DNA of 64,000 nt from Pleurocapsa sp. PCC 7327 (GTDB taxonomy: Bacteria; Cyanobacteriota; Cyanobacteriia; Cyanobacteriales; Microcystaceae), in assembly GCF_000317025.1 (NCBI RefSeq), contig NC_019689.1, forward strand, positions 1,899,501-1,963,500. The letters run 5' to 3'. The position numbers were made by a program, and so were the translations under genes. Shown here one piece after another: positions 23,816-27,670 of the stretch. How positions within the stretch are numbered: position 1 is the stretch's first letter; every line of letters starts with the position of its first letter. The notes under the pieces are model-generated. The model made no database searches. It was not told the origin of the DNA and was given only the letters and a program-made list of their open reading frames with translations.

Positions 23816-26347
23816 ATGACTATTCCCAGCTTAGTAACATGGTTGCAAGAACGGACAGCTTTAAGTATTTTGGCTCCCAATGTCATCGAAGCAATTGCAC
23901 CGATTTTAGAAGAACGAGTCGTATCGGCTAACCAATGTTTAGTTGAGGAAGAAACTTCTGCCGACGGACTTTATATCTTGCGATCGGGTCGTTTAGAAAG
24001 CGAAAATAAGAGCGATCGCTTGCGAAATTTGGGTTTATTACCTGGAACGGTTATTAACTTACAAGCGCTAATCTTAAAGCAACCCGTTCGAGATACGATC
24101 GTTACGCTGACTGAATGTGAATTTTGGTTCCTTAGCGCCCAAAAATTTCAAGAATTAATCGAGCAATATCCCGAAATTACACAAACTTTTTCGCAACAAC
24201 TCGCGCGAGAACTCGAACAATTATCTTCTCAACTAAGTTTTGAACAAGAACGCCAAACAATTTTGCGACCCTATCTCGTTACTAAAGCAAAACGAGGAAT
24301 TATTGGCAAAAGTTCCTATGCCGTGCGACTGCGATCGCAAATCAAACAAGCTTCAGAAAATCGGCAATCGGTTCTTATTTTTGGCGAACCTGGATTGGAA
24401 AAAGATAATATCGCCGCGCTCATTCATTTTAGTTCTTCCTATCGCCGCAAACCAATTATTAAAATTAACTGTTCTACCCTACAAGCTAACGGGGCAGATT
24501 TATTTGGTCGTGCGGGCGGAAAAATGGGCTTACTCGAAGCAGTAGGAGAAGGAACTCTCATTTTAAATAATATTCAGGAACTACCCTCAGAATTACTACA
24601 ACCCATTGCAGAATTATTGCAAACAAATACTTATATTCCCGTTACTCGTCCGGGAGAATCTTTAGCCGAGAAAAAAACTTCTCAAGCGCGAATAATTATT
24701 ATCTCTGAAAAAAATATTGCCGCGATCGCATCTTTGGTTGGGCACTCAATCAAAGTTCCGCCGTTGCGAGTTCGCAAAGGCGATTTAGAAGATTTAACTA
24801 ATTACTATATCAGCCTTATCTGTCGTGCGAAAGGAATGAAAAAAAGCCGCATCGTACCAGAAGCATTACGACGGCTACAAGCCTACGATTTTCCGAACAA
24901 TTTAAGGGAATTAGCGAATTTACTCGAACGGGCGATCGTCCAATTACAAGGATGCGCAGATATTACCGAAGAAGTTATTTGGCCCTCCCAAGGTAAGAAA
25001 AAACAATTTCGTTTAAATCTTTTAAATGCTTATCCAGTCTTGCGTCAATTTCTCCGAAGTTCTTGGTGGCCCGATCGCATTAATTATGGCTTTACTTTAA
25101 CGGCTTTTGCTCTCCTTAACGTCATTTTATTTGTTGGACCGCAAACGCGATCGCAAAACTTTGCCCTCAATTTATTTTGGGCGTGGTGGTGGCCCTTAGT
25201 ATTAATGGTTTTTCCTTTTTTTGGACGGGTTTGGTGTGCGATTTGCCCGTTCATGATTTATGGCGAAGTCACCCAAAAACTCTCTTTATGGTTGTTTCCC
25301 CGCCAATTAAAAAAATGGCCCCGACAAGCAGCAGAAAAATGGGGCGGCTGGTTTTTATTTGGCTTATTTGCTCTGATTTTATTGTGGGAAGAACTTTGGG
25401 ATTTAGAAAATACTGCCTATCTATCTTCTTGTTTGCTGTTATTAATTACGGCGGGAGCGATGATTTTCTCTGCTATTTTTGAACGGCGTTTTTGGTGTCG
25501 CTATTTATGTCCTATCGGCGGCATGAATGGCATGTTTGCCAAACTTTCGATGACAGAATTACGGGCACAACAGGGAATTTGTTCGGCTGAATGTACGACC
25601 TATCAATGTTACAAAGGAGGTTCTCAAAAAGGAGAGGGAATGGAAACAAATGGCTGTCCTTTGTATTCCCATCCAGCGCAATTAGAAGACAATCGAGATT
25701 GCGTTCTTTGCATGACTTGTTTGAAAGCTTGTCCCCATCGTTCGGTAGAGTTTAATTTGCGTCCTCCAGGTATTGAATTATGGACGACTCACGTTCCTCG
25801 AAGTTATGAAGTTGCCTTGCTGTTGTTGTTATTAGATTTAGTCTTTTTGCATCGCTTGCCAGAGATCCAACAAAGGCTCAGATTTCACTTAGATTTAACG
25901 CAGTTTTGGACGCATTTTTGGGTATCGGTGGTTGCGTTAAGTTTGCCCGCATTAATTCCCTTAGTTGGCTACGGAGTAATGCGATTAATTTATCAAGCGA
26001 CTCAAAAGATTAAGCCTCGCCGTTTCGTCGAGTTGGCTTATGGATATTTACCCTTAGTTCTCGCTGGAAATTTAGCCCATTATTTGCGACTTTGGTTGGG
26101 AGAAGCAGGCAGAATCTTACCCGTCAGTTTTGCAACGTTTGGTTTATCAGGCGAAGGACTGCCAATCTTAGTCGTACACCCAGCAGTAACGGCTTTTTTG
26201 CAAGGAACTACATTAGTCGCTGGCGTTATTTTATCGGTTATCTTGACCCAAAAAATTGCTCGTCAGCCTTTTAAATTATTGTTAGCACAGCATTTATGCA
26301 CCGCGTTACTAGCAATTGGTATGTGGAAAATTATTGTGGGATATTGA
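23816..26347 (+). CDS. cNMP-binding/degenerate sigma54-AAA/polyferredoxin membrane fusion
   Basis: An 843-residue fusion with three parts. Residues 20-145 form a cyclic-nucleotide-binding-like fold (DGLYILRSGRLE, FWFLSAQKFQELIEQYP). Residues 160-390 look like a sigma54-activator AAA+ domain: GEPGLEKD at 190-197, GTLILNNIQELP at 246, PPLRVRKGDLEDL and YDFPNNLRELANLLERA. Residues 420-843 form a NapH/NosR/CcoG-like membrane module with CAICP (474-477), CRYLCP (561-565), CSAEC, and a ferredoxin motif CVLCMTCLKACP (629-639). The P-loop lacks its second Gly, Walker B reads LNN for LDE, and GAFTGA is absent. It is thus unlikely to hydrolyse ATP or engage sigma54, which cyanobacteria are known to lack. 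A membrane redox role controlled by the sensor domain is inferred. Confidence 0.85.
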   Translation: MTIPSLVTWLQERTALSILAPNVIEAIAPILEERVVSANQCLVEEETSADGLYILRSGRLESENKSDRLRNLGLLPGTVINLQALILKQPVRDTIVTLTECEFWFLSAQKFQELIEQYPEITQTFSQQLARELEQLSSQLSFEQERQTILRPYLVTKAKRGIIGKSSYAVRLRSQIKQASENRQSVLIFGEPGLEKDNIAALIHFSSSYRRKPIIKINCSTLQANGADLFGRAGGKMGLLEAVGEGTLILNNIQELPSELLQPIAELLQTNTYIPVTRPGESLAEKKTSQARIIIISEKNIAAIASLVGHSIKVPPLRVRKGDLEDLTNYYISLICRAKGMKKSRIVPEALRRLQAYDFPNNLRELANLLERAIVQLQGCADITEEVIWPSQGKKKQFRLNLLNAYPVLRQFLRSSWWPDRINYGFTLTAFALLNVILFVGPQTRSQNFALNLFWAWWWPLVLMVFPFFGRVWCAICPFMIYGEVTQKLSLWLFPRQLKKWPRQAAEKWGGWFLFGLFALILLWEELWDLENTAYLSSCLLLLITAGAMIFSAIFERRFWCRYLCPIGGMNGMFAKLSMTELRAQQGICSAECTTYQCYKGGSQKGEGMETNGCPLYSHPAQLEDNRDCVLCMTCLKACPHRSVEFNLRPPGIELWTTHVPRSYEVALLLLLLDLVFLHRLPEIQQRLRFHLDLTQFWTHFWVSVVALSLPALIPLVGYGVMRLIYQATQKIKPRRFVELAYGYLPLVLAGNLAHYLRLWLGEAGRILPVSFATFGLSGEGLPILVVHPAVTAFLQGTTLVAGVILSVILTQKIARQPFKLLLAQHLCTALLAIGMWKIIVGY

Positions 26348-27549: not shown

Positions 27550-27628
27550 TTTTAAATTACTGTTAGCGCAGCATTTATGCACTACGTTACTGGCAATTGG
27601 CATGTGGAAAATTATTGTGGGATATTGA
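27550..27628 (+). repeat. Second copy of the 3' end of the fusion gene
   Basis: About 79 bases matching 26269-26347, including the stop codon, with six differences, five of which are synonymous. It encodes FKLLLAQHLCTTLLAIGMWKIIVGY-like residues (one Ala to Thr change) and then TGA. Upstream similarity stops abruptly. It lies 42 bases before the histone deacetylase-like gene. Confidence 0.92.
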
Positions 27629-27670
27629 GAAATAGAGAAGCTTATTTGTTTCGGGTTGCCAGTACGTTTG

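Follow-up and report, generated by a model that had tools for sequence, protein, structure and literature searches.

The stretch of DNA analysed here (the window) covers 64,000 nucleotides of Pleurocapsa sp. PCC 7327, and all coordinates of the gene given below are on its plus strand. A single uninterrupted open reading frame runs from an ATG at 23816 to a stop at 26347 and encodes a protein of 843 residues, which the reading frame, Pfam and our genome survey mark as fesM-like. Pfam places a cNMP_binding domain (PF00027) at residues 34–118 (23915–24169, also seen in the alignment; E 9.8e-14, 51.5 bits against a cut-off of 27.5), followed by a Sigma54_activat core (PF00158) at residues 162–302 (24299–24721; E 1.2e-15), an AAA_lid_14 domain (PF25601) at residues 318–379 (24767–24952; E 1.6e-12) and a Fer4_5 match with its best stretch at residues 541–577 (E 8.3e-9). 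The last three are also over their curated cut-offs, and the domain matches are far beyond chance; Fer4-type matches around residues 624–641 are under theirs. The profile match and predicted structure assign residues 396–843 (25001–26344) to a membrane module, with about nine long helices from residue 417 on in the AlphaFold model (mean pLDDT 74.7, pTM 0.53, with the ferredoxin region 575–654 below 50). By sequence and model this is a membrane protein with ferredoxin-type Fe–S motifs, and the fusion of cNMP-type, AAA and NapH-like polyferredoxin parts described in the initial annotation holds for one frame of 843 codons. The last part of the gene, stop codon included, recurs as a 79-nt copy (92%) at 27550–27628, 1281 bp downstream of the original and just before an ORF at 27656 that by eye looks deacetylase-like; it reads as a partial duplication scar of the fesM-like gene.

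To describe the family, we surveyed 388 genomes of the class. A match to the window protein at E ≤ 1e-100 occurs in 261 of them and in 125 of 160 genera, including the members of a second group, clade 2, described below. The remaining 127/388 genomes have no match at this cut-off, so many members of the class do without the protein. At a looser cut-off of E 0.001 the number rises to 307/388; in seven of the weak-only genomes that we inspected, six match the cNMP part only and one the membrane part. GTDB contigs gave 438 relatives, and the best 80 of the 438 all come from records titled cyanobacteria. These 80 and the window formed the neighbourhood set, in which several contigs are short, some flanks are short and Nostocales are many. 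A conserved operon for the window's group was rejected, as the best neighbour family is found in 19/81 loci. The alignment was drawn from best-hit lists rather than from a random sample, and its 183 proteins gave 177 distinct rows plus the window; L001 (a truncated duplicate of the window row) and L138 (no AAA domain in that ORF) were set aside, and L170 was moved to clade 2 on the tree. The resulting 176 AAA rows consist of 136 from the window's group (window included), 7 from f16, which is one family of small genomes, and 33 from clade 2. In genome G335, the fesM-like gene (L138) is divided between two overlapping frames, one with the AAA part and one with the membrane part; this gene and L137 of genome G221, which also has overlapping frames, are cases of gene split or frameshift. 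Scanning the L138 half at E ≤ 1e-10 returned no match, but as this threshold is stricter than the Fer4_5 score of the window protein itself (8.3e-9), the result carries no weight.

The membrane module carries C474 and C477 (CxxCP, 25235–25246) and C561 and C565 (CxxxCP, 25496–25510), all from the alignment, and a ferredoxin-like region (25580–25732; Pfam and alignment) with C589, C593, C598 and C614 followed by C629, C632, C635 and C639. The eight ferredoxin cysteines listed initially are real and invariant, but that list was incomplete, as C589, C593, C598 and C614 bring the invariant set to twelve. All twelve are present in 136/136 rows of the window's group, 33/33 of clade 2 and 6/7 of f16, the exception being L137 with its broken frame; twelve cysteines would suit about three [4Fe–4S] clusters. 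The NapH/MauN profile TIGR02163 aligns to residues 468–647 (E 1e-12), which include each of the twelve cysteines, and its score of 51 bits is below the curated membership cut-off of 213.05. On this comparison the module is best described as a relative of the NapH/MauN polyferredoxins and not a member, from which it differs by its first ferredoxin motif (Cx3Cx4Cx15CP), by further C-terminal helices and by the fused cNMP and AAA domains. Searches of the PDB for fold relatives of the module gave nothing significant, with a best Foldseek E of 1.9 and a best VIA Z of 5.6; because pLDDT is below 50 for the ferredoxin part in both models, these searches say nothing on the fold of that part. Plasmids of various other organisms, among them Deinococcus, haloarchaea, Sulfurovum and Azospirillum, carry the membrane module alone or related 4Fe–4S proteins. 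On a Deinococcus ficus plasmid (L152, 5042–7323), a stand-alone module overlaps the end of a 308-residue His-rich protein, for which Pfam gave no match.

The AAA region was initially described as shaped like a sigma54 activator, and the fold comparison agrees. VIA-align matched the model to NtrC1 (1ny5_B) with Z 20.0 and an rmsd of 3.4 over 227 aligned residues, and the best PDB sequence match is VpsR (E 2e-20), with FleQ also among the best. Together with PF00158 and PF25601, these results identify a core and lid of the bacterial enhancer-binding type, as in activators of the NtrC/PspF/NifA type, and support a sigma54-activator ancestry of the domain. The protein differs from these activators in having no GAFTGA, no Walker B acids and no detected DNA-binding domain, and in a genome where no RpoN was found. 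The P-loop, GEPGLEKD at residues 190–197 (24383–24406), has E195 at the third glycine position. Within the window's group, G190, G193, K196 and D197 are each kept in 136/136 rows, while the third glycine is kept in 17 and replaced in 119, with Glu in 111. The P-loop lysine, K196, is kept in all 176 aligned AAA domains. Walker B is degenerate, LNNI at residues 250–253 (24563–24574), so that the window has N-N at positions 251 and 252; Asp at 251 is found in 0/136 rows of the window's group and the glutamate at 252 in 0/176 rows. The GAFTGA loop of activators corresponds in the alignment to residues 230–246 (24503–24553), where the motif is absent; searched as GAF[TS]GA, it occurs in 0/176 domains. 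Residues 315–320 (24758–24775) read PPLRVR in the alignment, at the arginine-finger motif of activators, and in the window's group PPLR is exact in 127/136 rows and R318 is kept in 136/136.

As neither GAFTGA nor the catalytic glutamate of Walker B occurs in any aligned domain (0/176 for each), ATP hydrolysis and contact with sigma54 look lost across the family. As the P-loop lysine is invariant, a nucleotide-binding role is likely, and binding of nucleotide by the AAA domain may persist: a phosphate-gripping loop that is kept and catalytic acids that are gone would together be expected to give a binding-only domain. The motif readings of the initial annotation (GEPGLEKD, LNN at 250–252 and a missing GAFTGA loop) were correct, and inspection of homologues, which keep the cysteines and include no GAFTGA-bearing member, extends them to the family. 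Its description of a 'dead' AAA core is fair for hydrolysis, but a simply dead or vestigial domain is not supported, with K196 in 176/176.

Sigma54 is not expected in this class, and in keeping with the absence of rpoN assumed initially, a search with PF04552 and PF04963 gave 0 matches in the 4.99-Mb single-contig genome of the organism. The same search was positive in four of 14 control genomes, namely E. coli, B. subtilis, Caulobacter and Bacteroides. Across the class, PF04552 matched at E ≤ 0.001 in 5/388 genomes and over its cut-off in 2/388. The strongest of these matches (E 2.3e-16), in genome G334 (L153, 1501–1884, minus strand), is an RpoN C-terminal-domain-like stretch with a sequence resembling the RpoN box, in a frame of 207 residues. 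No second sigma54-activator-like protein was found in the organism's own genome with PF00158, whose six other matches are Clp-type (four), MoxR-type and Mg-chelatase-type AAA proteins. Pfam at E ≤ 1 gave no helix-turn-helix (Fis-type) family in the window protein, and no DNA-binding Pfam domain lies between the lid and the first long predicted membrane helix, which starts at residue 417.

The cNMP-type domain is also modified. Its modelled fold matches SpIH/HCN-type cNMP domains in VIA-align (Z ~16), and the window protein has no acidic residue where the phosphate-binding cassette usually has one. Residues 77–79 are GTV in the window and most commonly GAV (52/136) or GSV (26/136) in its group, where the acidic position is mostly A, S or T. 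The domain is absent or short in 3/136 rows of the group, and 6/7 of the sampled f16 proteins are without a full one.

The family is widespread in cyanobacteria, which the initial annotation missed, and the protein is probably known, as FesM. FesM of Synechococcus sp. PCC 7002, a strain listed as Picosynechococcus in the plasmid collection, also carries a cNMP-type domain. Going by the title of the paper by Xu, Liu and Zhao from 2005, it is reportedly a membrane iron–sulfur protein required for cyclic electron flow around PSI. A passing remark in a citing paper states that loss of FesM blocks mixotrophic growth on glycerol. Two other strains of the genus each have one homologue of the window protein over residues 1–842, with 63% identity in a genome (G238) whose plasmid stretch is 100% identical to Picosynechococcus PCC 7003 and 62% in another (G164) matched in the same way to PCC 7117. 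Since there is one homologue in each of these two genomes, the window gene is a probable FesM orthologue, a judgement made from the genus, the paper title and the domain content; both are cyanobacterial membrane iron–sulfur proteins. A text match to 'FesM' in PMC12265555 was discarded as the string FeSMo.

Clade 2 was reached via two plasmid proteins, from Pseudanabaena and Aulosira, and is present in 43/388 genomes at E ≤ 1e-220. In 32 of these 43, the window protein matches twice at E ≤ 1e-100 (a hand count, with two candidates scored per genome), and most clade-2 genomes thus seem to carry both kinds of protein. The members were first chosen by their P-loop motif, which makes the count of this motif circular; the tree was built from the membrane module alone, independently of the AAA domain, and on it the 32 motif-picked rows and L170 form one group (100/100). 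The Walker A motif [AG]xxGxGKT is found in 32/33 clade-2 rows, with Gly at the first position in 11/33 and Ala in most others, and PPLR in 0/33. Their cNMP cassette is also more usual, with GDL in 19 and GEL in 11 rows (30/33 together). On the membrane-module tree, whose root is unsure, the window's group does not form a clade (39 of its rows sampled, including L001 and L170, with four label changes): L125 lies beside clade 2 (96/93), and L123 and L225 lie beside f16.

The surroundings of clade 2 are recurrent. A PLP-enzyme family of the cysteine-synthase (cysK) type occurs in 14/21 clade-2 loci (L150, L151 and L187–L206), sometimes plasmid-borne, and is directly next downstream in 9/21; one member was tested with Pfam, and two are annotated as cysteine synthase. 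Other families recurring in the 21 loci, each named from one Pfam-tested member, are NUDIX (6), photosystem reaction-centre (5), nitronate monooxygenase (5), PetC (4), cytochrome bd (3), aldehyde decarbonylase (3) and FeoB (3). A candidate heme oxygenase was dropped, as Pfam identified it as an aldehyde decarbonylase. These neighbour families are hints of a sulfide or low-oxygen setting. Labels should be read with caution here, since one clade-2 relative is annotated as a 'nitrogen assimilation regulatory protein'.

The architecture, its conservation, the loss of catalytic residues, the lack of an RpoN match and the distribution are direct observations. The reading that we favour, and consider probable, is that a redox membrane protein, FesM, is gated by a non-hydrolysing, nucleotide-binding AAA domain. 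The C-terminal NapH-related polyferredoxin would pass electrons from a soluble cytosolic donor to the membrane quinone pool, and the N-terminal half, with its cNMP-type and AAA+ domains, would be on the cytosolic side. This half could hardly activate transcription any more, because no RpoN, GAFTGA or DNA-binding domain was found. As the P-loop lysine and PPLR are kept and the Walker B acids are gone, the AAA domain would most likely bind nucleotide without hydrolysis, and this binding, or a nucleotide-dependent oligomerisation, may gate the redox module.

The most serious alternative, already proposed initially, is that the AAA domain has no nucleotide ligand and serves purely as a scaffold for structure or assembly. 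The lost Walker B acids, the replaced third P-loop glycine (119/136 in the window's group) and the dispensability of the cNMP domain in some lineages are all in keeping with it, but G190, G193, K196, D197 and R318 at 136/136 seem more than a mere scaffold would need, and [AG]xxGxGKT is present in 32/33 clade-2 rows, so that we regard a scaffold as doubtful. A second alternative concerns the electron acceptor, as the membrane module might reduce a metal or other acceptor instead of quinone, in the manner of CcoG or FtrD. One plasmid-borne relative of the module adjoins iron-transport genes in Azospirillum and another a metal cation transporter and P-type ATPases in Natronorubrum. Two other plasmid relatives are in unlike settings, however, some clade-2 loci lie near photosystem reaction-centre-type, PetC or cytochrome bd genes, and FesM, by the title of its paper, is required for cyclic electron flow; such a role is improbable. 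VpsR and FleQ are activators able to act without sigma54, and a membrane-tethered transcription regulator of this kind, set by the redox state of the clusters, would agree with the VpsR match and with a weak match of a clade-2 relative's module to the NCBIfam 'transcriptional regulator NosR' (E 3.1e-5; 22.5 bits, far below the cut-off of 1000), but VpsR and FleQ are soluble DNA-binding proteins, whereas the membrane part with its ferredoxin-type cysteines follows the lid here, no helix-turn-helix match appeared at E ≤ 1 and no RpoN was found, making this very unlikely.

Beyond the gated redox protein that we favour, the two groups suggest a wider and much more tentative picture, in which a sigma54-activator motor stranded without sigma54 was recast as two complementary, non-hydrolysing nucleotide gates that set photosynthetic electron flow. 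The window's group keeps PPLR and in most rows has replaced the third glycine of the P-loop, and clade 2 keeps Walker A and is without PPLR; the same redox module could then have one gate for general use and the other for particular circumstances (sulfide or low oxygen). We consider this possible but on balance unlikely, and its odds are reduced by the membrane-module tree, on which the window's group is not a clade. In the literature searched we found no description of how the degenerate AAA domain is built across the family, nor of the complementary cysK-linked clade, and the FesM paper may treat part of this. Among the literature matches listed, FesM seems to have drawn little follow-up as a component of cyclic electron flow, and the family-wide pattern opens a direct test of whether a transcription motor, by losing AAA hydrolysis long ago, became an energy-state sensor controlling photosynthesis.
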